Part shown: positions 6,143 to 20,501 of the stretch, piece by piece
Layout of the letters: each line of letters starts with the position of its first letter
How positions within the stretch are numbered: the stretch's first letter is position 1
Virus record (IMG/VR): IMGVR_UViG_3300008267_000546
Location: 1-35,728 of that record
Length of the DNA: 35,728 nucleotides
DNA from: a virus
Reading direction: 5' to 3' (one strand)
Notes under the pieces: generated by a model
What the model was told of the DNA's origin: nothing
Database searches by the model: none
What the model saw: the letters and a program-made list of their open reading frames with translations, nothing else
Translations under genes and position numbers: made by a program

Positions 6143-6653
6143 TTTTTTTCCTTTTTTCTATTTTCTTTTCAGCTAATTTTAACTTTAACTTACTTACTCT
6201 ATCGATAAACTGTATTCCGTGTAGATGATCGTATTCATGCAAAAATATTCTAGCATCAATATCATCGAACTTTGTATCTACATGTATAACATTTTTAAAG
6301 TCATCTGTCAATGTATCAAATTCTACAATACAACTAATAGGACGTCTAACTTTTAACATTAATCCAGGGTGGCTTAAACACCCTTCAATTCCTTCTTCAA
6401 TTTCTTTGCTAATTCCTGTAACAACAGGATTTATTACTACCAACGGTGATCCGTATGTTTTGTTTAACACAGGTTTCATTACAAATATTTGTGCATTTAA
6501 CCCAACTTGATTAGCAGAAATACCTATACCACCTTCTTTATTCATAACATCTATCATGTCAAGTGCAAACGGAGCAGGATGTAATGACTCATAGTCGAAC
6601 TTTTTAACTTGAGTTTCAAGCATTACATTAGGTGATTTTACTAATTGCATCAT
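6129..6653 (-). CDS. def: Peptide deformylase
   Basis: A 174-residue enzyme that removes the formyl group from the N-terminal Met of new proteins. All three family motifs are visible: GIGISANQ (42-49, motif 1), EGCLS (90-94, motif 2 with the metal-ligand Cys92) and HEYDH (139-143, the HExxH metal site with catalytic Glu140). The C-terminal tail is lysine-rich and ends shortly after the last helix, as in phage and organelle-type enzymes. Marine phages are known to carry short functional deformylases. It overlaps dnaJ upstream by 26 bases and clpA downstream by 14, forming a three-gene protein-maturation operon. Two adjacent Met codons make the start uncertain by one residue. Confidence 0.93.
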   Translation of the reverse strand: MMQLVKSPNVMLETQVKKFDYESLHPAPFALDMIDVMNKEGGIGISANQVGLNAQIFVMKPVLNKTYGSPLVVINPVVTGISKEIEEGIEGCLSHPGLMLKVRRPISCIVEFDTLTDDFKNVIHVDTKFDDIDARIFLHEYDHLHGIQFIDRVSKLKLKLAEKKIEKRKKNGRT

Positions 6654-7413
6654 TTAATTCTTTTACCTTTTCTAATATTTTTACATCATTTATTTTTGGT
6701 ACGAAACCTTTAATAGTTACATATAAATTGCCTGTAGTATTACTTTTATTATCTATTAAACCGTGACCTGAAATACTCAACGTTGTTCCAGGTTGAGTTC
6801 CTTTAACTATATTAACACTTAAATTATTTCCTGTCAACGTTTTAACTTCGATTTTAGTTCCTAACATCAAGTCAAACACATTAACTTTCTGTGTAATATA
6901 TAAATGTTTGCCATCTCTATCAAATGTAAGATGCTTTGATATCTTTACAATTACAATAAGGTCTCCTCTAGGAAGTTGAGATATTTTGTTATCTCCAAGA
7001 CCTTTAAATCTAATACCTTCGCCGTTTTCTACCCCGGCATGAATTCTTATAGTAGCAGTTGTACTTTGTCCGTTGAACAATCCGTAGTTTAATATTAAAT
7101 CTTTTCCGGTTAATACGTCTTCTAACGTAATTGTTACTGCTAATTTTATATCTTTATTTTTAGAAAATGCTCCGAAGCTGTTGAATACATCTTCGAAATT
7201 TGTAAATTTAAAGTCAAATGATGATGTTGGAGTATCGTACTGCGATCGTTTCGCAGGATCTTTTAATGTTTCATATGCTTCGTTTATTTCGGCAAATTTT
7301 ACAGAATCACCACCACGGTCTGGATGATGTTCCATTGCAAGTTTACGATATGCTTTTTTTATGTCTTCTTGTGAAGATTGTCTAGTGACACCTAGAATAG
7401 AATAATAGTCCAT
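6628..7413 (-). CDS. dnaJ: DnaJ/CbpA-type Hsp40 co-chaperone without zinc domain
   Basis: A 261-residue J-protein. The J-domain occupies about residues 1-62 (starts MDYYSILGV) with the HPD tripeptide at 30-32 that triggers DnaK ATP hydrolysis. A short Phe-rich linker (SFDFKFTNFEDVFNSFG) replaces a Gly/Phe region, and two beta-sandwich substrate-binding domains follow (LAVTITLEDVLTGK; GIRFKGLGDN; RGDLIVIVKI). The Cys-rich zinc domain is missing, so it is a class B (CbpA-like) Hsp40. It would recruit the host DnaK, as no hsp70 is seen here. It has no Shine-Dalgarno: the ATG lies in the 3' arm of a perfect hairpin, five bases after a promoter-like octamer. It heads the dnaJ-def-clpA run. Confidence 0.93.
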   Translation of the reverse strand: MDYYSILGVTRQSSQEDIKKAYRKLAMEHHPDRGGDSVKFAEINEAYETLKDPAKRSQYDTPTSSFDFKFTNFEDVFNSFGAFSKNKDIKLAVTITLEDVLTGKDLILNYGLFNGQSTTATIRIHAGVENGEGIRFKGLGDNKISQLPRGDLIVIVKISKHLTFDRDGKHLYITQKVNVFDLMLGTKIEVKTLTGNNLSVNIVKGTQPGTTLSISGHGLIDNKSNTTGNLYVTIKGFVPKINDVKILEKVKELNDAISKIT

Positions 7414-7440
7414 ACTTTTACTTATCGTATGGACTATTAT
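7402..7440 (-). promoter_or_regulatory. Perfect 14-bp hairpin over the dnaJ start with GATAAGTA in its loop
   Basis: On the minus strand the arm ATAATAGTCCATAC (7440-7427) pairs without mismatch with GTATGGACTATTAT (7415-7402); the 11-nt loop is GATAAGTAAAA. The 3' arm holds the dnaJ ATG (7413-7411) and its next codons. Only 4 of 14 pairs are G-C. The loop carries GATAAGTA, a variant of the T4 late -10 element, ending five bases before the ATG. A long read-through transcript would bury the start codon, while a transcript begun at the octamer would lack the 5' arm. Alternatives are an RNA-thermometer-like control or a protein-binding dyad. Confidence 0.6.
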
Positions 7441-7456
7441 AAGAAATTACTATTGA

Positions 7457-7798
7457 TTATTCGTTTGAGCTGGTGCTTGTGTAAGCCTGTGCACCATAGA
7501 ATGCTGCAACAATTGCTGCTACTGATACAAAGTATGTTGGAGCCATGTCACCTAGTATGCCAGGTGCTGCTTCTAAGCCTAACCAACTTGCTATAACAAC
7601 TGCAAATGGATATAGTAGCATACCAAACAGTGCAAACCATGCCATGTTACGTTGTGCATCTTCTCGCTTGTCTTGATTGTCGATTTTTATCATCTTTTCT
7701 TGTGCTGCGATTTCTTGATCTGTAACCACACCATCGCCGTCTACATCAAATGATTCGTACTTTGATCCTGACTCTAATGTCTTTGGTCTTCTTGCCAT
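7457..7798 (-). CDS. EF-hand membrane protein in the lysis region
   Basis: A 113-residue protein with one canonical EF-hand loop, DVDGDGVVTDQE (18-29: Asp at loop positions 1, 3 and 5, Glu at 12), then a charged helix and two hydrophobic spans (AWFALFGMLLYPFAVVIASW and YFVSVAAIVAAFYGAQAY). It should be a two-span inner-membrane protein with a calcium-binding N-terminal head. I recall similar proteins in uncultured marine phages. Its position directly after the endolysin, holin-like and spanin genes suggests a role in lysis control, possibly as a second holin or calcium-sensing regulator, but this is inference. Its start overlaps the upstream gene by 25 bases. Confidence 0.72.
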   Translation of the reverse strand: MARRPKTLESGSKYESFDVDGDGVVTDQEIAAQEKMIKIDNQDKREDAQRNMAWFALFGMLLYPFAVVIASWLGLEAAPGILGDMAPTYFVSVAAIVAAFYGAQAYTSTSSNE

Positions 7799-8079
7799 TT
7801 GTTATCTCCCTCAAGTTTGGCTATACGAGCTTCTAACTCGTCAATTTTTTTTGTTACGTGTGGATATTTTGTACGCCATGCATCAGTTGGTTGTTCAAAC
7901 CAAGATAGCCCCCAACGGTGTACAAGATAATCAAGGATTTGGTCTAGTTTTGCATAAGCCCAAAGCCCTGCACGAGTGTCTTTAAAATATGCTAGAAATG
8001 CAGCACCAACTAATGATCCTAGTATTGCTGTATATATCCAGAGTGTATCTCCAAATATTCTATCTATCATTTCTAGCAT
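7774..8079 (-). CDS. Small single-span membrane protein with C-terminal coiled coil
   Basis: A 101-residue protein with an N-terminal hydrophobic span (LWIYTAILGSLVGAAFLAYF), a Trp/Asp-rich middle and a heptad-like C-terminus (KKIDELEARIAKLEGDNK). No family is recognised. AGGGAG lies nine bases upstream of the ATG, and a CTAAATAA promoter-like element lies further upstream. It sits between the spanins and the EF-hand protein; the topology would allow a holin-related or membrane-anchoring job, but nothing in the sequence proves that. Confidence 0.6.
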   Translation of the reverse strand: MLEMIDRIFGDTLWIYTAILGSLVGAAFLAYFKDTRAGLWAYAKLDQILDYLVHRWGLSWFEQPTDAWRTKYPHVTKKIDELEARIAKLEGDNKWQEDQRH

Positions 8080-8107
8080 ATTTTGACTCCCTATAACAAG
8101 TAGTAAA

Positions 8108-11466: not shown

Positions 11467-12198
11467 ATGGGTAGAGCTAGAGCTGCCAAAAGGCAACAAG
11501 CAAATGACTATAATACAACTAACGTTGTAAAAATCAATACATTCCTTCCAAAAAAAAGCAAAACAGTTAATATATTTCCACGAAATAAAAGTCAAGAAAC
11601 TTACGTGTTAAAATTGCTAGACGAGAAAAGAGACATAGTCTTCGGGATAGGTCCAGCAGGAACCGGCAAAACTATGTTAGCATGTCAGGTGGCCGTAAAA
11701 CACTTTTTAGAAGGTCGTGTAGATAGAATAGTTGTTACAAGACCAGCAGTAAGTGCAGACGAAGATTTAGGCTTTTTACCAGGCACACTAGAAGAAAAAA
11801 TGGCTCCGTGGACTAGACCAATATTTGATGTTCTACGTGAATATTTTTATGCCAACGAAATCGAAGGCATGATCAAAGAAGGTGTAATCGAAATATCTCC
11901 TTTAGCATATATGAGAGGAAGAACATTTAAAGACTCCTTCATAATTGCAGACGAAATGCAAAATGCTACACCTAATCAAATGAAAATGTTACTAACACGC
12001 ATTGGTACAGGATCTAAGATGGTTGTAACAGGCGATCTAGCACAAGCAGACAGGTTAAAAGACAACGGCTTGATTGAATTTGTGAATCAATTAAACACCT
12101 TTGATAGCAAGCATATCGAAGCAGTGTATTTTAACCATAAAGATATTGAAAGGCATGACGCAGTAAAAGAAGTTCTCCAAGTGTACGGCGATGCTTAA
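11467..12198 (+). CDS. phoH: PhoH-like ATPase
   Basis: A 243-residue P-loop ATPase of the PhoH family, common in marine phages; the cellular role is unsettled (phosphate stress or RNA metabolism have been proposed). A basic N-terminal tail (MGRARAAKRQQ) is followed by Walker A GPAGTGKT (62-69), conserved VVTRPAVSADEDLGFLPG, and Walker B IIADEMQNA (Asp162, Glu163), then the sensor region VVTGDLAQAD. The start has a strong AGGGAG seven bases upstream. It is one of only two plus-strand genes here, sits behind a structured leader, and its TAA overlaps the stop of the convergent gene. Confidence 0.93.
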   Translation: MGRARAAKRQQANDYNTTNVVKINTFLPKKSKTVNIFPRNKSQETYVLKLLDEKRDIVFGIGPAGTGKTMLACQVAVKHFLEGRVDRIVVTRPAVSADEDLGFLPGTLEEKMAPWTRPIFDVLREYFYANEIEGMIKEGVIEISPLAYMRGRTFKDSFIIADEMQNATPNQMKMLLTRIGTGSKMVVTGDLAQADRLKDNGLIEFVNQLNTFDSKHIEAVYFNHKDIERHDAVKEVLQVYGDA

Positions 12199-12470
12199 TA
12201 GTATCTAGCACGACCACTACCTGATGGAGGAGATAGAGGATTTTTATGAGAGTTCTTTATCTCCTCCAACAGCCACTCTCCTTCAGTATAAAGTACTGCA
12301 TCTGTAGCAGGTCCTTCTCCGGCAGGTCCCCAGTATAATCTTTTTAATTTGATGTACTTACGCCACCATACCCATTTACCACTAGTTGTAAGAATCGGCA
12401 GCCAGGCAAACTTTTCTTTTATGCGTATGTCTGGAATTCTTATTCCTCCGGTGTATCCTGCACCCATCAT
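12195..12470 (-). CDS. Conserved hypothetical protein, 91 aa
   Basis: Not recognised by function. Trp/Tyr-rich and basic ([34 protein letters not shown]), with a Gly/Ser/Pro-rich C-terminus. Similar small proteins occur in cyanophage genomes as I recall. It is the last gene of the run that begins at 17858; its start overlaps the thyA end by four bases, and its TAA overlaps the phoH TAA on the opposite strand (shared TTAA). Confidence 0.6.
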
Positions 12471-13333
12471 ACTGCCATTGGAGCCTTGATACTTTCCATA
12501 GGATTATAATTAATCAGTTTAAACTCTTCTGGTTTTTTACTAATAAGATCATTTAATGTTTCAAAAACAGGCATTAACAAACAAGGACCTTCTACGGGTT
12601 TGCGTGTAATTTGTTCTTGAACCTGTTCCATATGATTTTGATAAATGTGGCAGTCGCCGCCAGTCCAAACAAAGTCACCAACTTTGAGTTCTAACAGTTG
12701 TGCAAACATGTGTGTGAGCAAACTGTAGCTAGCAATGTTGAATGGCACTCCTAGGAACATGTCGGCACTGCGCTGATACAGTTGACAACTCAACTCACCG
12801 TCTTGTACATGAAATTGAAACAAAGTGTGACAGGGCGGCAATGCCATAACAGGAATTCGATCAGCGTTCCACGCACTGACAATGTGCCTTCTACTGTCGG
12901 GATCGAATTTAAGTCCTTCTAAAACCTGTGCAATCTGATCAACGTAACCCAATTGTGCATCCCAAGTACGCCACTGATGTCCGTAAACAGGTCCTAGCTC
13001 TTTTACCGTATCAGTATTTTTATATCCGAGATCACGTGCTTGTTTGTCTGCATTGGCAGTCCATATAGTGGTCTTGTCTACTAGTTCTTCACGTGGCTTA
13101 CCGTAGTGTATTTCTGCAAGTCTGCGTTCATCTGAGCTGCCTTCTAAGAACCACAGCAATTCACTTACAACCGATTTCCAAGCAAGTTTTTTTGTTGTAA
13201 CTGCTGGAAAATTTTCGCGAAGATTAAAACGCATTTGATAACCGAATACACCACGGGTACCTACACCAGTTCTATCTTTACGATCTTTGCCATTTTCTAG
13301 TATGTATTTTAATGCGTCATGATATTGTTTCAT
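12467..13333 (-). CDS. thyA: Thymidylate synthase (ThyA)
   Basis: A 288-residue folate-dependent enzyme making dTMP from dUMP and methylene-tetrahydrofolate. Visible motifs: the phosphate-binding RTG (21-23), catalytic Cys168 in PPCHTLFQF, and the substrate-binding block [17 protein letters not shown] (about 187-203), then [10 protein letters not shown]. Length is normal and the core is intact. The dihydrofolate product is recycled by DHFR, whose gene overlaps just upstream by four bases, so the pair forms a complete dTMP module supporting phage DNA synthesis. Confidence 0.96.
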
Positions 13334-13800
13334 TTTTTAATCCAGTGTTCGATATATAATTCACCGTTGTCAACAGTGTCCAATGCAAATTGTTCAAGAA
13401 TAGATTCAACAGGCAAGAACGTATCACACTCATATACACCTTCGATACGACTTAGATGTATACTGTCAATGTATGGTAACAAATGCTTTATAAGTTGTGC
13501 GCCGCCGATGATCCAAATGTCGCCAGCAGATTTTAACTTTGGTAATGTAAATCTTGTCAGTTGACTCATACTAACAGTTGTGTCAGCACCTTCTACTTTG
13601 GTAGACGAAACAACTATGTTTTCTCGTTTGGGTAACGGTTTCATAGGCAAACTTTCCCAAGTTTTCCTGCCCATTACTACAGTGCAATTTACGGTATTTT
13701 CTTTGAACCATTTAAGGTCAGCAGGATTGTGAGGCCAAGGCAGGACACCGTTTTTACCGATGCCCCAATCCTGGTCACAAGCTAGTATTGCTCGAATCAT
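13330..13800 (-). CDS. folA: Dihydrofolate reductase
   Basis: A 156-residue NADPH-dependent reductase regenerating tetrahydrofolate. It starts [17 protein letters not shown], contains [17 protein letters not shown] with the catalytic Asp28 (equivalent to E. coli Asp27), GRKTWES and the GG pair of IWIIGGAQL for NADPH binding. Length matches bacterial DHFR. Four-base overlap with thyA downstream and a one-base overlap with the small membrane gene upstream indicate co-translation. Confidence 0.95.
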
Positions 13801-14060
13801 TATAATCCTTTGAGTGCCCGAAGTATGTTTCTATTTTCTGTTTCTACTTCATCTTTAGAATCTCGGTAAGTATCACGCAACACAATTGTAATTAAAGGCA
13901 GAAAAATAAACAAACCTGCTCCTACTAACACTCCTGCTTGTGGATCATAACCTAACCACAGACTAACAACAGCACCAATGCCCACAGACCCTAGTATGTA
14001 AGCTACTATACCTAAACCTTTGCTAATCTTAAATAAAAATCGTTTCCAAACTCTACTCAT
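13800..14060 (-). CDS. Small two-span membrane protein, 86 aa
   Basis: Two hydrophobic spans (LGIVAYILGSVGIGAVVSLWL and AGVLVGAGLFIFLPLITIVL) with a basic N-terminus (SRVWKRFLFKISK) and a charged C-terminal helix (RDTYRDSKDEVETENRNIL). No family is recognised. It is embedded between the ferredoxin and DHFR genes in the early run, so it is unlikely to be a lysis protein. Role unknown. Confidence 0.6.
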   Translation of the reverse strand: MSRVWKRFLFKISKGLGIVAYILGSVGIGAVVSLWLGYDPQAGVLVGAGLFIFLPLITIVLRDTYRDSKDEVETENRNILRALKGL

Positions 14061-14061
14061 A

Positions 14062-14403
14062 TTAATCTCCTTTTCCTGGATTCTCTGAAAAATACTTTAT
14101 CTTACCCTCAACTCCATGCCACTCTTTTGCATCTGCAGGAGTATCTTCTGGACGCATTTGAGTAATATTAGGCCATAGCTCAGCATACTTTTGATTAAAA
14201 TCTATCCACTGTGCAGCACCATCTGCGGTGTCTGGTAAAATAGCATCAGCAGGACATTCTGGTTCACATACTCCGCAATCGATGCATTCTGCTGGATTAA
14301 TTACCAGCATGTTTTCGCCTTCGTAGAAACAGTCGACTGGACAAACTTCTACGCAATCCATATGTTTGCATTTAATACAAGCATCATTTACAATATACGT
14401 CAT
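14062..14403 (-). CDS. fdxA: Seven-iron ferredoxin, FdxA type
   Basis: A 113-residue ferredoxin with the full Azotobacter FdI/FdxA pattern: Cys9, 17 and 50 for a [3Fe-4S] cluster and Cys21, 40, 43 and 46 for a [4Fe-4S] cluster, plus extra Cys12 and Cys25 as in the family. Conserved text includes [37 protein letters not shown] and the C-terminal WPNIT. It is a low-potential electron carrier. It is not the plant-type [2Fe-2S] PetF known from cyanophages, but resembles proteobacterial FdxA, so it was probably taken from a proteobacterial host. It sits between gp44 and the nucleotide genes in the early run, which suggests supply of electrons to host metabolism during replication; the partner is unknown. 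Confidence 0.95.
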
Positions 14404-14404
14404 T

Positions 14405-15325
14405 TTACCTCTTTAATCTTGCAAGTTGTATCAATGTTGCTGATAGATTTATTTCAGGGTCAACTACTGACGTGTGATCTACTAATCCTTGCTTAATAAT
14501 TAGTATTGCATCGTCTTGAGCTGCATCCGATCCGAACAAGTTAACGTTGTCATAAAGCCAACGATAAACATCTTCCATTTCTTCAGCCCGAACTGTTCCA
14601 CAAAGTAGTTTACGTGCATCAACAATTTTGCCTTCTTTAAACAGTTCAACCATTTGTATCTTCCAATCAGCACCGCCGGAGTCGCCCTGACTTGCTGAAA
14701 CCAACGTGCCGTCTGTGCTGTTTTGTTGCACCATGTTGATGCATTTACGCAAGTCAGGGTAGGTTACTTTTACATATGTATCAAGTACATCTAAGTCAAA
14801 TGCAACACCTTCAGTAATAAGAATTTCTGCAACTCGTGCAGTAAACTCAACTTGATCAGTTTTTGCAATATGAAAACTCTGACAACGACTGTGGATTGCT
14901 GGAATTACTTTGTTAGGATAGTTACAGGTTAGAATAAATCTTACTGTAGTATGGTATTCTTCCATGATACCACGCAACGCAGCCTGTGCGTTAATTGACA
15001 AATAGTCTGCTTCGTCCAGTAGAATTACTTTAAAGTCGCCAAATGGAATCATTTGAGAAAAACTAGTAATTCTATTACGCATTTCGTCTACACCAGTTTG
15101 ACGACTGCCGTTTACTTCTAGTATATCTAACGGGTTAACTTTTAATTCGTTGAGTAGCAGTTTTGCTAGCGTAGTTTTACCGATGCCTGCATTACCACTA
15201 AACAGCAAATGCGGAATACTTCCTTCTTTGATCCACTGCATTACCTGCGATCGTTGTGTTTCATCTCGAAACACATAACCGTCAACTGTTTTTGGACGGT
15301 ATTTTTCTACCCAAAGTTCTTTCAT
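14405..15325 (-). CDS. 44: Sliding-clamp loader large subunit, T4 gp44-like
   Basis: A 306-residue AAA+ ATPase. It starts [16 protein letters not shown], typical of RFC/gp44 subunits, with Walker [10 protein letters not shown] (about 44-52), Walker [12 protein letters not shown], sensor-1 FILTCNY and the SRC arginine-finger motif in [10 protein letters not shown]. With the small subunit (not in this window) it would load the gp45 clamp for the phage DNA polymerase. The C-terminal domain is the helical collar. The upstream gene overlaps by four bases. Confidence 0.94.
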
Positions 15326-15552
15326 TGTTCTAGCCTTTTTATTTTATTTTCAAGGTCTTCGATATAATCTGCAATCTTCCAATCGATTGAGTCCATACAT
15401 TTAAATTTATATTCTTCGCCTGCTCGATTACGCAGAAATCGAACCATTGGGCTAGGATCTAGCATGGGCGTGAGTTCAGCATACACCTTGTCTACGACAT
15501 CGTGTTCGTTTTCTTCTTCTTCAAACCCGTGTGTGTTAATTGTAGTTGTCAT
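15322..15552 (-). CDS. Conserved hypothetical protein, 76 aa
   Basis: Not recognised. Acidic, with EEEENEHDVVDKVY near the start and a C-terminal helix with heptads ([17 protein letters not shown]), possibly a coiled coil that mediates dimerisation. The ATG at 15552 follows the upstream TAA by two bases with GGGA just ahead; an in-frame TTG at 15564 is less likely. Overlap of four bases with gp44 indicates coupled translation. Confidence 0.55.
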   Translation of the reverse strand: MTTTINTHGFEEEENEHDVVDKVYAELTPMLDPSPMVRFLRNRAGEEYKFKCMDSIDWKIADYIEDLENKIKRLEQ

Positions 15553-15554
15553 AG

Positions 15555-16289
15555 TTAATCCCAAAGGTTTTGATAGTATTTTCCAAACAGTCTAAATCCG
15601 TTTTGAATTCTTTTGCCATATTCTTTACGTGCATCCCAATCAGTTTCCGCAGTATGTTTCGGTCCTTGGACCATAAGATAGTTTCCATCTTCTTGTTTTA
15701 CACTTTGGTAGTCGTATGCACCTGTGGTAAACTGATCTTCCCAGTCTTCGTTAACACCGCCCTCGAGGCTTTCAAACGCAAAGATCATTTCATCCATAAC
15801 CCAATTCCAACGCTTGAAGTGATTGTCGTCGGTGTGTCCAGTGTCTTTTTGCTCTTGAGTAAGTTCGGGTGCAGCAGTACTACGCAGTTCTTCCGGAACG
15901 TCTTCGTCGTCTACCCAAGGAGCACCGTGTGTTTTTTCTTTGAGTTGTTTGAGCATCGGGCGCACAATGTAGCCTAGCGTGGTTTCCATGTTCCATGTAT
16001 CCCACTTGTCGATGTGTACCGAAATCTTACGCTTCTTTTTACTATCGATCCACTTGAGCAAACGATAGATCCAAGTTTCAGGACGATTTTCGCCCCAGCT
16101 ACTAATATCGCCTACCTCGGGTTCGGGCTCGATGCTGCCATGAGCAAGCCATTCGCCAAACTTATGAACACGGTCAGCAGTGTGCGGAAACCCGTATTCA
16201 TCCTTTTCTTTCGGCACCCAGAACATAATAGCTTCGGCGAGCTGATATGGTCCAAACCAGTTTTTGTATTTGCCAATTTTTACATGCAT
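15555..16289 (-). CDS. Conserved phage protein of unknown function, 244 aa
   Basis: A Trp-rich soluble protein that I recognise as widely conserved in marine and other large phages but without a known function. Conserved-looking blocks: KIGKYKNWFGPYQLAEAI at the start, KISVHIDKWDTWNMETTLGY, MLKQLKEKTHGAP, FKRWNWVMDEMIFAFESLE and the C-terminal FRLFGKYYQNLWD. No catalytic signature is apparent. It is encoded in the early replication run, overlapping the 134-aa gene by one base, so a role in takeover or DNA metabolism is more likely than a virion role (inference). Confidence 0.68.
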   Translation of the reverse strand: MHVKIGKYKNWFGPYQLAEAIMFWVPKEKDEYGFPHTADRVHKFGEWLAHGSIEPEPEVGDISSWGENRPETWIYRLLKWIDSKKKRKISVHIDKWDTWNMETTLGYIVRPMLKQLKEKTHGAPWVDDEDVPEELRSTAAPELTQEQKDTGHTDDNHFKRWNWVMDEMIFAFESLEGGVNEDWEDQFTTGAYDYQSVKQEDGNYLMVQGPKHTAETDWDARKEYGKRIQNGFRLFGKYYQNLWD

Positions 16290-16693
16290 CAGCTTAATCC
16301 TGCTATTGTTTTATAATTGTCCCACGCCTTTTTGGCAGCCGGGTTACTTTGTACCACATCGTCAGTGAGAATCATATCATACCAATATTGTGCCATGCGT
16401 TGCGGATGAGCACCAAACTGTCTAGGTTGATGCAGCTTCCCTTCGTTTTTCAAGCTAATACAAATATCACGTATAGCCTGTTCATCTTTTGCAGGAATAG
16501 TGCTCCATTCAGGATTGCTGTACATACTGCCTAACCTGCCGCCGCCGCCATATCCATTCCACACACTATACCAATGATCATCGTGCGCTGGATCAAAATC
16601 TGTACGGGCAACAACTACTACGACATCGTTGATATTTACGACACCCTCGTAAATATCCTTTACGCAACGACTAAGACTGGTTCCTACCTTCAT
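16289..16693 (-). CDS. Conserved phage hypothetical protein, 134 aa
   Basis: Not recognised by function, but the blocks LSRCVKDIYEG, VVVVARTDFDP and KLHQPRQFGAHPQRM look like a conserved small protein of T4-like cyanophages. Trp-rich, with a Gly-rich middle (WNGYGGGGRLGS). No membrane segment. It overlaps MazG upstream by four bases and the 244-aa protein downstream by one. Confidence 0.62.
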   Translation of the reverse strand: MKVGTSLSRCVKDIYEGVVNINDVVVVVARTDFDPAHDDHWYSVWNGYGGGGRLGSMYSNPEWSTIPAKDEQAIRDICISLKNEGKLHQPRQFGAHPQRMAQYWYDMILTDDVVQSNPAAKKAWDNYKTIAGLS

Positions 16694-16986
16694 TTGATCA
16701 AATTACTCCACGTTTTAAGTTTGTCTCGCTTGACGTTAACTCTAGCACCCAATTCGTCATTTGTCAAGATCTCATGTTCGACCATTAATTCGATCATGCA
16801 AAGAACATCACCGGCTTCTTCGATCAACAAATCCCTATACTTGTCGTTTTCGATTTCTTCAAGTGTTGTATACTTACGCATAACTTTCATGCATACTTGT
16901 GTAAGTTCACCACATTCCTCTGCGGTGATGGCCATAAGTTGCTGTATAGCATTAAGAGATGACTTTAGTTCTTCGTTACTTACCAT
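16690..16986 (-). CDS. MazG-like NTP pyrophosphohydrolase
   Basis: A 98-residue all-alpha NTP-PPase of the MazG superfamily. The metal-binding signatures are present: EECGE (23-27, ExxE type) in helix 1 and EEAGD (56-60, ExxD) in helix 3, with hydrophobic continuation VLCMIELMVE. These hydrolyse (d)NTPs or related nucleotides to monophosphates; phage versions have been proposed to alter host nucleotide or alarmone pools. A second enzyme of the superfamily is encoded at 17926-18300. It overlaps the preceding membrane gene by 11 bases. Confidence 0.8.
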   Translation of the reverse strand: MVSNEELKSSLNAIQQLMAITAEECGELTQVCMKVMRKYTTLEEIENDKYRDLLIEEAGDVLCMIELMVEHEILTNDELGARVNVKRDKLKTWSNLIK

Positions 16987-17164
16987 GTTCTTGCCTTTTT
17001 CTAAAATCGCAATAATCCACAGTCCAGAGAGAGTATACTAATCCTGCTAATAGGCCGAATATAATATTTGCCCAAAAGTTTTCACCAGTTAAACTGGCTA
17101 TACTAAAAGCAAGCATCAAATCTGCTGCTAGGATAGCAACTAACCAATCATACCATCTAATCAT
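16976..17164 (-). CDS. Small two-span membrane protein, 62 aa
   Basis: Hydrophobic spans WLVAILAADLMLAFSIASL and ANIIFGLLAGLVYSLWTVDY with a short charged C-terminus (CDFRKRQEHGK). No family is recognised. It lies in the early run, starting two bases after the 51-aa gene and overlapping MazG by 11 bases. Similar in size and layout to the 86-aa two-span protein at 13800-14060, but I see no sequence similarity. Confidence 0.55.
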   Translation of the reverse strand: MIRWYDWLVAILAADLMLAFSIASLTGENFWANIIFGLLAGLVYSLWTVDYCDFRKRQEHGK

Positions 17165-17166
17165 GA

Positions 17167-17322
17167 TTATTTCGACAGTGCTTTACGCAGTTCCGATCCT
17201 TCAAAGTTTTTCATTTCTGCATAGTGTTTAAGAACAGTATTATCAGGATCAAGACGCTTGATTTCACGAGCAAAACGTTCGATCATATCATAGTCAAGTT
17301 GAGTCTTAATATGTTTACCCAT
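17167..17322 (-). CDS. Small hypothetical protein, 51 aa
   Basis: A short gene found by reading the gap between the exonuclease and the 62-aa membrane gene. It begins MGKHIKTQLDYDMIERFARE and ends with ELRKALSK; basic, fully helical-looking, no cysteine. Its ATG overlaps the exonuclease TAA (TAATG) and its stop lies two bases before the next ATG, so it fits the operon perfectly. Function unknown. Confidence 0.65.
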   Translation of the reverse strand: MGKHIKTQLDYDMIERFAREIKRLDPDNTVLKHYAEMKNFEGSELRKALSK

Positions 17323-17858
17323 TATTTTGTCCATCCGTGATGTTTAAAGATAATTTGCACACTCTTTGCTTGAAAGTAAGCATCGGCAAGAGCGTTGTGT
17401 AGATTGGTTTGCATGTCTTTGCGAGGATCCTTGGGCATACGTTTGGTAATGGTACGAGCGTCTGAAATTTGCCAAAACTGCCAAGGAATAGGTTTACCAA
17501 TCATGCGATACATGTTTTCGAGAATAGTAATATCAAACCCGTAACCGTGACCCCAGAGTTCATCAACACCCACAACCCAACGATTAAGTTGTGACAACGC
17601 TTCTTCTACAGTAACAGCGCCAGTCTGATCGAATGCTTCTTCCATAATTGCAGGATCTTGTTTTCCCCACCATTCAATTGTACTGTCGCTAGTTGTGCGT
17701 CCTAGATGGTCTTGATCATCTACAAGAATCTTCAAGTACAACTCGCTGTAAGGATCTGCATCACTTGTTGGATCAAACTTGACAGCGCCAAGCGAAAGAA
17801 CAGTTGCAGTAGGAAACACATCAAGTGTTTCTAAGTCAATCATGCCGTGGATGGCCAT
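17322..17858 (-). CDS. DEDDh 3'-5' exonuclease (DexA / Rv2179c-like)
   Basis: A 178-residue exonuclease. All five catalytic positions are visible: Asp8 and Glu10 in MIDLET (ExoI), Asp109 in GHGYGFDITIL (ExoII), and His154 plus Asp159 in HNALADAYFQA (ExoIII, DEDDh type). The motif STIEWWGKQ resembles T4 DexA and the Rv2179c-like 3'-5' exoribonuclease family, so the substrate could be DNA or RNA ends. It is the first gene of the early run, directly behind the sigma70-like promoter, with AGGAG seven bases upstream of the ATG; that site lies within an inverted repeat. Confidence 0.88.
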   Translation of the reverse strand: MAIHGMIDLETLDVFPTATVLSLGAVKFDPTSDADPYSELYLKILVDDQDHLGRTTSDSTIEWWGKQDPAIMEEAFDQTGAVTVEEALSQLNRWVVGVDELWGHGYGFDITILENMYRMIGKPIPWQFWQISDARTITKRMPKDPRKDMQTNLHNALADAYFQAKSVQIIFKHHGWTK

Positions 17859-17864
17859 AAAAAT

Positions 17865-17912
17865 ACTCCTTGTTTATACACACAATATAGCATGTCATAA
17901 ACAAGGAGTCAA
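17865..17912 (-). promoter_or_regulatory. Near-consensus sigma70 promoter inside a 13-bp inverted repeat
   Basis: Minus strand: -35 TTGACT (17912-17907), 17-bp spacer, -10 TATATT (17889-17884) preceded by TG (extended -10). Perfect 13-bp arms ACTCCTTGTTTAT (17909-17897) and ATAAACAAGGAGT (17877-17865) flank the -10 with 19 bp between them, 32 bp centre to centre. The downstream arm contains the AGGAG of the exonuclease gene. It should drive the 13-gene run down to 12195 with the host polymerase. A read-through RNA could fold both arms and hide the ribosome site, while promoter-initiated RNA lacks the first arm. The hairpin is followed by ATTTTT, so a weak terminator is an alternative. Confidence 0.75.
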
Positions 17913-17925
17913 TCGGTTATCTATC

Positions 17926-18300
17926 TTATGATAGATGATTTACAAACTGTGCAAGTTGCGGTGGTTGCCAACCTTCTGGCTTCAGTACTTTGCCATCTTC
18001 ACGTTTACGAACTTTTCCAGTTTCTGGATCAATTTTAGCAAAGTTAGTTCGCATAACTTCGTTCCATGCAGCTTCGCCGTCTGCACCCATTGAATTGATA
18101 GCACCGATAGTAACAACTAAGATATCAACAAGTGCATCTAGCACTTCGACAGAATCTTCGTTGGTTACAGCTTCTGTTAATTCGCTGTGTTCTTCACGAA
18201 TAAGATCGAGATACATTTCAAATTGCGCACGATGCCACTTGTCTGTGGTTTGTCCACATGCGTTCATAAATGTAGTTTGATCTTTAAATGGATTTGTCAT
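17926..18300 (-). CDS. NTP pyrophosphohydrolase, PRA-PH/MazG superfamily
   Basis: A 124-residue all-alpha pyrophosphohydrolase. Helix 1 has REEHSELTEA (about 35-44) and helix 3 has EVLDALVDILVV, giving the metal ligands; the C-terminus KREDGKVLKPEGWQPPQL is typical of the phage phosphoribosyl-ATP-pyrophosphohydrolase-like branch. It probably hydrolyses a nucleotide to monophosphate, with unknown substrate. It follows the GroES-like gene by nine bases. A short stem (17919-17936, ATCTATC/GATAGAT) covers its stop codon but lacks a T-run. Confidence 0.8.
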   Translation of the reverse strand: MTNPFKDQTTFMNACGQTTDKWHRAQFEMYLDLIREEHSELTEAVTNEDSVEVLDALVDILVVTIGAINSMGADGEAAWNEVMRTNFAKIDPETGKVRKREDGKVLKPEGWQPPQLAQFVNHLS

Positions 18301-19111: not shown

Positions 19112-19669
19112 TTAGCGTAAAAATTCACGCCAATCTAAATTGTATTTTATGCTGTTTATTTTATGTACATCAATCAAGTATAGTACATAACTTGCTACAC
19201 TTGATCCTCTGCCTACGCCCCAAACAATACCATTCTCACGCATAAAGTCCACAAGATAAACCATGTAGCGTAATAGGTTTATCATGCCACGTTCTTCAAA
19301 TGCTTTGAGTTCTTCGCAAACTCTATCCCATTCCGGTGTTTCTTGCATTTCATATGCTTCAAATATACCAGTTTTAGACATAAGTTTGGATATAATATAC
19401 GCACCTACATCAAGGGTTTTATATTCGTCAGGCATGTACCATTCGCTCTGACACACACTGTCAAAAGTCTTTTGATCTACATCTATAGGAATATATTTTT
19501 GTAGTTTAGGAAGACCTTGATCTTCCATAGCACTGTTAAACCGGTCAACATCGTCACTAGGATCACATAGAACTACATGGCACTTGTCTATATTGCCACT
19601 GTAGATCATATCTATGAGATCGCGGTTAGAGAATCTGGGTATACCTAGTTCATCAGTTTTCATAAGCAT
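19112..19669 (-). CDS. Truncated family-C DNA polymerase (DnaE palm) homologue
   Basis: A 185-residue protein whose C-terminal 50 residues match the start of the palm of bacterial Pol III alpha: LLRYMVYLVDFMRENGIVWG, then VGRGSSVASYVLYLI and IKYNLDWREFLR, equivalent to DnaE text around GPGRGS...GSLVAYAL and LLFERFLNPER. The protein stops where DnaE would continue to the DxD catalytic aspartates, so it cannot polymerise. T4-like phages replicate with a family B polymerase (gp43, not in this window), so this may be a regulatory decoy, a clamp or host Pol III binder, or a relic. Two ATGs (19669, 19663) are possible; no good ribosome site is seen. Confidence 0.75.
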   Translation of the reverse strand: MLMKTDELGIPRFSNRDLIDMIYSGNIDKCHVVLCDPSDDVDRFNSAMEDQGLPKLQKYIPIDVDQKTFDSVCQSEWYMPDEYKTLDVGAYIISKLMSKTGIFEAYEMQETPEWDRVCEELKAFEERGMINLLRYMVYLVDFMRENGIVWGVGRGSSVASYVLYLIDVHKINSIKYNLDWREFLR

Positions 19670-19678
19670 ATAGTAATA

Positions 19679-19906
19679 TTAACTAATTTTTATTAAATTG
19701 TCAAGATCATTGTTGTCGTCAGATTGTTTTAACTTAGCAGCAATGCGTCTTTCTTCTAATTCAAGTTTGTATGCATCCATTAGCAATATCATTTGTTGTC
19801 GAACATCAGAGTTGTCTGTTAAAAAGTATATACTATTAAGTTTATACAACTTTTGTTCAATCTGTGAATCAGTGAACTCTTTTAAGTTTCCGAGTGTTGG
19901 ATGCAT
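19679..19906 (-). CDS. Small conserved hypothetical protein, 75 aa
   Basis: A helical, charged protein with KEFTDSQIEQKLYKLNSIYF and a Leu/Met-rich middle (RQQMILLMDAYKLELEERR), likely a coiled-coil or small helical bundle. Similar proteins lie beside tail genes in marine T4-like phages as I recall. The ATG overlaps the TAA of the structural gene (TAATG), implying co-expression with it; a chaperone or assembly role is possible but unproven. Confidence 0.58.
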   Translation of the reverse strand: MHPTLGNLKEFTDSQIEQKLYKLNSIYFLTDNSDVRQQMILLMDAYKLELEERRIAAKLKQSDDNNDLDNLIKIS

Positions 19907-20469
19907 TAACTAAATTGACCAAGGTATTTCATGTAAACAGTTGATCCACCGTTGTAAGTAAATGCTTCTACTACAACAGGGTTTGTTGCACTGGTTACTG
20001 TAAACGGCGAAGGAAAATCACCATCTTTCTTTGGAGTAACACCGCCGATGCTTGCCCATGTTATAGTTCTTGCTGTGCCATCGCCAAACAGCATTACACG
20101 TATACTTGCATATCGTCCATTTGCAGGCCAGTTTGTAAAAGTCAAGCTAATGTCGTTTTGAGCAGTAATTACATAAAAGTGTCCGCTGCTAAACGGTATA
20201 GTAGAGTTTGATACTACTCCAGTCGATCCTGTAGTGTTTGCTTCCGCAGTTACAGCAAGAAGATTAGCATCTACAATATCGTTACCATCAAAGTCACTGC
20301 TATCATCAATTCTAGCAACACCGGTTTGCAAATCTTCAATTTCTGTTTTTGCATAGTTGAAGTTATCTTTGATTATAGAAAAGTTATCACGAAATCCTTG
20401 ACTATCGTTGTCTTGTCCTGCTACCGGAAAGTTTTCATCGAGTGTTGTAGTGCTTATGCTACTTGCCAT
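19906..20469 (-). CDS. Virion structural protein with shared N-terminal motif, 187 aa
   Basis: The N-terminal part (DENFPVAGQDNDSQGFRDNF, then SIIKDNFNYAKTEIEDLQ) is a divergent copy of the DG-x-GD-x-LR-x-x-F-x-K-x-N-x-NF motif at the start of three other proteins in this block. The rest is beta-rich and Gly/Ser/Thr-rich (FYVITAQNDISLTFTNWPAN, ASIRVMLFGDGTARTITW), like a fibre or baseplate-associated protein. It has a late-promoter-like element and GAGGA upstream, and is the first gene after the 1044-aa structural gene. Confidence 0.65.
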   Translation of the reverse strand: MASSISTTTLDENFPVAGQDNDSQGFRDNFSIIKDNFNYAKTEIEDLQTGVARIDDSSDFDGNDIVDANLLAVTAEANTTGSTGVVSNSTIPFSSGHFYVITAQNDISLTFTNWPANGRYASIRVMLFGDGTARTITWASIGGVTPKKDGDFPSPFTVTSATNPVVVEAFTYNGGSTVYMKYLGQFS

Positions 20470-20492: not shown

Positions 20493-20501
20493 TTATTTAT
20501 C
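20493..20501 (-). promoter_or_regulatory. Late-promoter-like element GATAAATAA
   Basis: Minus strand GATAAATAA in the 36-base gap before the 187-aa structural gene, about 24 bases from its ATG, with GAGGA in between. It matches the element at 11345-11353 and 3242-3250 over nine bases. Confidence 0.5.

Follow-up and report, generated by a model that had tools for sequence, protein, structure and literature searches.

In bacteriophage T4, the ribosome sites of e, soc, 49 and I-TevI are hidden when early RNA reads through from upstream and accessible in RNA started at a late promoter, the hairpin carrying this promoter within its 5' part (PMC3014915, PMC2988022). In these genes, as in segB and in mobE of phage Aeh1, the ribosome site or the start codon is paired in the long RNA born upstream, and the position of the promoter leaves the translated RNA without the 5' arm (PMC3014915, PMC2988022). 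In this study I describe a unit in an uncultured phage that shares this working principle: its ribosome site is paired in upstream-born RNA, as indicated by folding prediction and covariation, and a nested promoter with its -10 in the loop would give RNA without the 5' arm. However, it falls outside the group with respect to promoter type. The locks of T4 and Aeh1 use the T4 late promoter TATAAATA, which is absent from the window (the whole stretch analysed, 35,728 nucleotides of IMG/VR record IMGVR_UViG_3300008267_000546), and they keep late genes silent early, whereas the unit described here carries a host-type promoter, TTGACT/TATATT, and stands in front of a replication-type nuclease, with the expected timing reversed, against late read-through. 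In addition, its stem is usually followed by a U-run.

In IS10/Tn10, RNA reading in from outside folds over the transposase ribosome site and RNA from the inner promoter does not, a likeness in the division between masked and free messages; the gene is that of a transposon and not a phage replication operon, and no -10 is known to be nested in the loop there. The SAS/ESAS sequences of cluster K mycobacteriophages are also repeated sequences that include a ribosome site and stand at gene starts, with a fixed 13-bp consensus, 11-19 copies per genome and 17-bp repeats upstream of the ribosome site, inverted repeats lying just 5' in about half of the cases (PMC3203893). The unit here differs in being usually present as one strong copy, in having no fixed sequence and in holding the ribosome site inside an arm, and the window unit lacks the SAS/ESAS sequence GGGATAGGAGCCC before the start. 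In the cultured phage PA5oct (186478-186530, GGGCAC-TTGACAA-GTGCCC TTTTTTT), a terminator and a restart promoter likewise share bases at the matching border of structural and replication genes. There, in contrast, the -35 is in the loop, and as the -10 and the ribosome site lie beyond the terminator, the ribosome site is unmasked.

Anatomy and gene setting in the window

On the minus strand of the window, TTGACT (17912-17907) is followed, after a 17-nt spacer, by TATATT (17889-17884) with TG one base 5', and then by GTGTGT, the second arm ATAAACAAGGAGT, ATTTTT and the ATG at 17858 (Table 1). A promoter scan finds 10/12 consensus matches in addition to the extended TG, from which I judge the promoter to be host-type and probably strong; promoter-like sites in the window overall are not in excess (53 vs. 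56.5 in shuffles). The two inverted arms, 100% complementary over 13 nt in a repeat search of the window, enclose 19 nt and lie 32 bp apart from start to start, and the AGGAG of the exonuclease gene (17870-17866) is contained in the second arm, 5' of ATTTTT. A preliminary description, made from the sequence alone, had these elements right, and had the -10 bracketed by the arms, to which I add that the -35 itself overlaps the first arm. Its placement of the transcription start just before the second arm has to be amended: a start near this arm stands as a prediction, but 7 nt past the -10 would put +1 at 17877, the first base of the arm itself.

By itself a perfect 13-bp repeat is only mildly unusual: of inverted pairs no shorter than 12 bp within 200 bp, the window listing contains 17. 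For the transcribed strand, the folding energy is -35.8 kcal/mol vs. -19.35 +- 3.2 in shuffles (z -5.1, 0/200), and a chance origin of the repeat is ruled out by its conservation in relatives.

Table 1. Features of the unit and its surroundings, in window coordinates
Feature	Coordinates	Strand	Basis
-35 hexamer TTGACT; its ACT begins the first arm	17907..17912	-	sequence and promoter scan
First (5') arm ACTCCTTGTTTAT, able to pair with the ribosome site; missing from promoter-born RNA	17897..17909	-	repeats, folding, covariation
Extended -10, TGC-TATATT, inside the hairpin loop	17884..17892	-	sequence and promoter scan
Second (3') arm ATAAACAAGGAGT; predicted +1 at 17877	17865..17877	-	+1 inferred from -10 spacing
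Shine-Dalgarno AAGGAG in the second arm	17866..17871	-	sequence, opening-cost folding
ATTTTT immediately 3' of the hairpin; terminator-like in many relatives, weak in the window (d score -13)	17859..17864	-	
3'-5' exonuclease, first gene of the operon, Rv2179c-like/PHROG 255 family, 178 aa	17322..17858	-	
Thirteen co-directional genes including exonuclease, clamp loader, ferredoxin-like, DHFR-like and thymidylate synthase	12195..17858	-	
Upstream neighbour, MazG-like pyrophosphohydrolase, ending 13 bp before the -35; presumed source of read-through RNA	17926..18300	-	
GATAAATA, T4-type late-promoter-like motif (20501-20494), before the last tail-fibre-like gene (20469..19906)	20494..20501	-	

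The first gene downstream encodes an exonuclease of the Rv2179c-like/DexA type (PF16473, 2e-37; PHROG 255, 1e-44). The earlier count of 13 downstream genes holds: thirteen co-directional genes run from 17858 down to 12195, before a convergent gene (11467-12198, +). Directly 5' of the unit, a short hairpin (ATCTATC-ATAA-GATAGAT, 17919-17936, -) lies at the end of the MazG-like gene and is present, as far as seen, in near-identical contigs only. Close to its convergent end, the last gene of the operon contains 18-bp arms (89%) with GGAGGAG/CTCCTCC (12221-12272) and no T-run after them. Perfect 17-bp arms 67 nt apart (7984-8084, -) contain the start codon of the gene 8079..7774 in the first arm and have the second in its coding region. 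At the start of a dnaJ-like gene (7413..6628), a perfect 14-bp hairpin with the start codon in its second arm (7402-7440, -) was rejected as a conserved element, being found in near-identical contigs only. A 185-aa protein (19112-19669, -) looks like a piece of bacterial DNA polymerase III alpha, and many jumbo phages have it conserved in this position.

Conservation and compensatory changes among relatives

By the clamp loader, the closest isolates belong to the PA5oct/Paride group of Pseudomonas jumbo phages (57%), followed by Agrobacterium phage Atu_ph07 (45%); the genes nearby are arranged in a similar order. A megablast of the region against isolated phages gives no match. In dozens of uncultured relatives of PA5oct and Atu_ph07, the unit is found at the head of the replication cluster, usually with one strong copy per genome. 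It is not described in Rfam (best match at chance level, with 15.2 bits where 100 is the cut-off, and located on the opposite strand) or in the literature searched, and the papers on Atu_ph07, MIJ3 and AP-J-162 make no mention of promoters, terminators or hairpins.

In 80 loci fetched by the exonuclease protein alone, blind to the DNA, the unit is located directly before the exonuclease in about a third, and in many of the remaining loci it is one short gene further upstream, in front of a 53-aa membrane-type protein. Among the distinct promoter and ribosome-site units in these protein-chosen loci, 39 of 61 have the whole ribosome site paired to sequence 5' of the -10 (vs. 10.8 by spacer shuffle). 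A looser pattern scan of IMG/VR, in which a good part of the listed matches is an unrelated coding repeat or chance, adds the clamp loader and small proteins of the MHPL and IDLNKY types as first genes behind the unit among the matches listed; in the loci examined, these units stand at the head of the same cluster or directly after the last tail-fibre-like gene. With a stricter pattern that includes the -10, 74 phage stretches (42 distinct) are found vs. 5 in 257 Gb of bacterial genomes, and the spacing between -35 and -10 is 17 in 36 of these 42 units. A covariance model finds a match in 16 of 20 large records, usually a single strong one; the secondary matches, which resemble plain promoters or chance, were set aside.

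The position of the promoter inside the hairpin is kept in nearly all units. Related phages keeping the promoter without the symmetry of the arms had been named in the preliminary description as evidence against its reading, and three clear cases do occur at the exonuclease gene (L008, L019, L021), vs. about 40 distinct units that keep the arms, so that the lock seems dispensable in some relatives.

Atu_ph07 follows this plan too: upstream of its clamp loader gene, around 240,018-240,067, it has TTGACA-17-TATTAT with GGCTCTTGAT..ATCAGGAGCC, followed by TTTTTT, C and ATG, the stem being GC-rich. Elsewhere in this genome (MF403008), near 189708, 311912 and 465448, there are ribosome-site or terminator-like hairpins with ACTCCTT/AAGGAGT arms and no clear nested promoter, for example before a 176-aa ORF near 189773. 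Tandem units about 190 bp apart occur in L100 (6387-6440 and 6575 onward) and L122 (902-955); the first unit is almost symmetric, carrying TTGACTCC at either end but on opposite strands, and is perhaps a two-way promoter.

The paired changes in both arms that the preliminary description proposed to look for are indeed found. In 42 distinct aligned units, standard pairs are observed in 91.3% of the pair cells vs. 76.0 +- 1.1 in shuffles, and 111 cells are changed on both sides vs. 41, neither value being reached in 500 shuffles, controls that ignore selection on the promoter sequence within the arms. Two-sided changes that preserve the pairing are seen in 10 of the 16 pairs, and the covariation score is 0.381 (shuffled, 0.130±0.012). 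On an exonuclease tree of 26 units I count 30 pairing-preserving double changes and 15 breaks; permuting the second arms among the tips of this tree gives 6.6±3.0 and 52.3±4.0, respectively, and when arms are swapped between units, stability is lost, the mean energy rising to -13.2 kcal/mol from -21.6. Within the inner stem there are 27 G·U cells where about 31 are expected from the columns, while A·C is depleted (5 observed vs. 19 expected), as are other mismatches. As a DNA dyad would not separate G·T from A·C, this pattern points to pairing in RNA of this strand.

These observations bear on two alternative explanations. One, offered in the preliminary description, is that the dyad is a DNA operator, at which the dimer of a repressor or activator acts on the promoter. 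The perfect and symmetric arms around the -10 in the window would suit such a protein, but a conserved half-site at fixed spacing is not what the relatives have: their inner arms have diverged with the pairing preserved, the outer end-to-end span varies by 12 bp, from 40 to 52 bp among the matches listed (L119, L103), and the acceptance of G·U and not of A·C is inexplicable by a DNA dyad. Moreover, the arm sequence has no second site elsewhere in the window at up to one mismatch. Covariation, G·U tolerance and variable spacing thus speak for an RNA hairpin, and I regard an operator as very unlikely. Even less credence is due to the other explanation, that the complementarity is a by-product of two selected signals, the promoter TTGACTCCTT and the ribosome site AAGGAGT, with the hairpin itself functionless. 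The outer six pairs are almost invariant and fall on the -35 extension and the ribosome site, as this would have it, but the inner pairs, which lie outside both signals, covary; in L072, L075 and L078 the segment opposite the ribosome site is shifted off the -35 or has other letters and still pairs; and masked units are far more numerous than the spacer shuffle gives.

Predicted masking, termination and the late gene border

When 76 units are folded in their own context, opening the ribosome site takes a predicted median of 13.0 kcal/mol for read-through RNA vs. 2.1 for promoter-born RNA, the latter being the lower in all 76. For the window copy (L003) the predicted values are 12.9 and 3.8 kcal/mol, so that the promoter-born RNA, too, is predicted to hold the site to this extent. 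Masking would hence extend throughout the family; termination, judged by the score given below, would be confined to part of it. The second reading in the preliminary description, a promoter-dependent translation switch, is thus supported, both by the compensatory changes with their acceptance of G·U and not A·C, and by a ribosome site predicted to be hidden in RNA from upstream and much more accessible in RNA born at the promoter.

I consider it quite probable that an RNA hairpin with a nested host-type promoter locks the ribosome site of the exonuclease in upstream-born RNA, and that the replication operon is expressed only from its own promoter. The -35 and the spacer are overlapped by the first arm, the loop contains the -10, and the second arm would begin with +1. 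RNA reading through from upstream would fold the hairpin and hide the ribosome site, and in relatives with a good U-run it would probably terminate there. As the first arm is missing from RNA born at the nested promoter, the ribosome site of this RNA would be free and the message translatable. The replication operon would thereby be on only when its own promoter fires, and silent to late read-through.

A likely source of such read-through is seen in the T4-type late-promoter motifs of upstream genes in this lineage. Of 53 distinct cases, 40 have the motif [GT]ATAAATA within 90 bases 5' of the last structural gene before the cluster, where shuffles give 3.4%; in the window as a whole it is not enriched (3 vs. 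2.1 in shuffles). My inference is that late transcription begins at this motif and runs on into the replication cluster, the expression of which the unit would prevent. A further candidate for a late-promoter variant, GATAAGTA, was dropped, as it is explained by a conserved gene end.

The U-run, the spread of the unit through the jumbo-phage lineage and its site at the border of late and replication genes go beyond what had been described before. T makes up 79% of the first six bases past the ribosome site in 16 hairpin starts, vs. 28% at the 225 other gene starts in these loci (p 1.7e-10). As the hairpin is followed by a U-run in most units, unlike other gene starts, it is likely a terminator in part of the family, and a weak one in the window copy.

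The hairpin could be primarily transcription punctuation, an intrinsic terminator for upstream RNA with a nested restart promoter, in which masking is merely a consequence of the ribosome site being located in the terminator stem. Apart from the U-run itself, which is missing in the orthologues without arms (L008, L019, L021), the unit of Atu_ph07 with its GC-rich stem base and six T, and the clear terminator of PA5oct, which stands at the same border and has the -35 in its loop, are in line with this. However, long loops and AU-rich stems make poor terminators, a score by the d'Aubenton-Carafa formula exceeds zero in just 30 of 77 units and is -13 in the window, and several units (L027, L048, L063) retain the hairpin without a U-run. 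Nor are nested promoter-terminators a genome-wide habit, an idea rejected upon a scan of five large records, which hold 0 to 4 each. Punctuation as the primary role is a serious contender, though it falls somewhat short of an even chance. Much less likely, and improbable on the whole, is a role as a sensor or as a protein target on the mRNA, such as a thermometer, a translational repressor site or a RegB-like nuclease site, instead of a lock against read-through. RNA thermometers do hold a ribosome site in a stem, which is the plan seen here. In T4, early mRNAs are cut at GGAG sites and translation is repressed at many starts (PMC3014915). But the promoter would itself start transcription downstream of the 5' arm, which makes the stem impossible in promoter-born RNA, this placement of the promoter is kept in nearly all units, and no Rfam family matches.

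Other overlaps of promoters with hairpins were also seen. In record G001, a second nested unit (L394, about 14605-14637, -) has TTGACA-17-TATATT inside CCTACACTA..TAGTGTAGG, followed by six T. At dnaJ genes of relatives (L309, L310, L311, L312, L313, L314), 5' promoters overlap hairpins that resemble terminators and whose loop holds either the -10 or the -35, for example TTGACAAAGCAAGGACTATAGTGTATAATTAACACTATAACCTTGCTTATTTTTATGG in L310.

Implications for jumbo phages

Returning to the read-through lock, a wider form of it would be that a single module of 45-60 bp serves as terminator, promoter and ribosome site at the late/replication border of the whole jumbo-phage lineage, ending late transcription and hiding the ribosome site in what remains of it. 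I hold this to be quite possible, though somewhat less likely than not; if true, the replication operon would be deaf to late transcription by two means, termination and masking. Regulation in the jumbo phages of the PA5oct/Atu_ph07 lineage is almost undescribed, and the unit offers a sequence-level handle on how the early and late programmes are kept separate where genes run head to tail almost without gaps. It would be the trick of T4 lysozyme put to use with a host-type promoter, in a compact part of about 50 bp that is expected to pass only the message of its own promoter.
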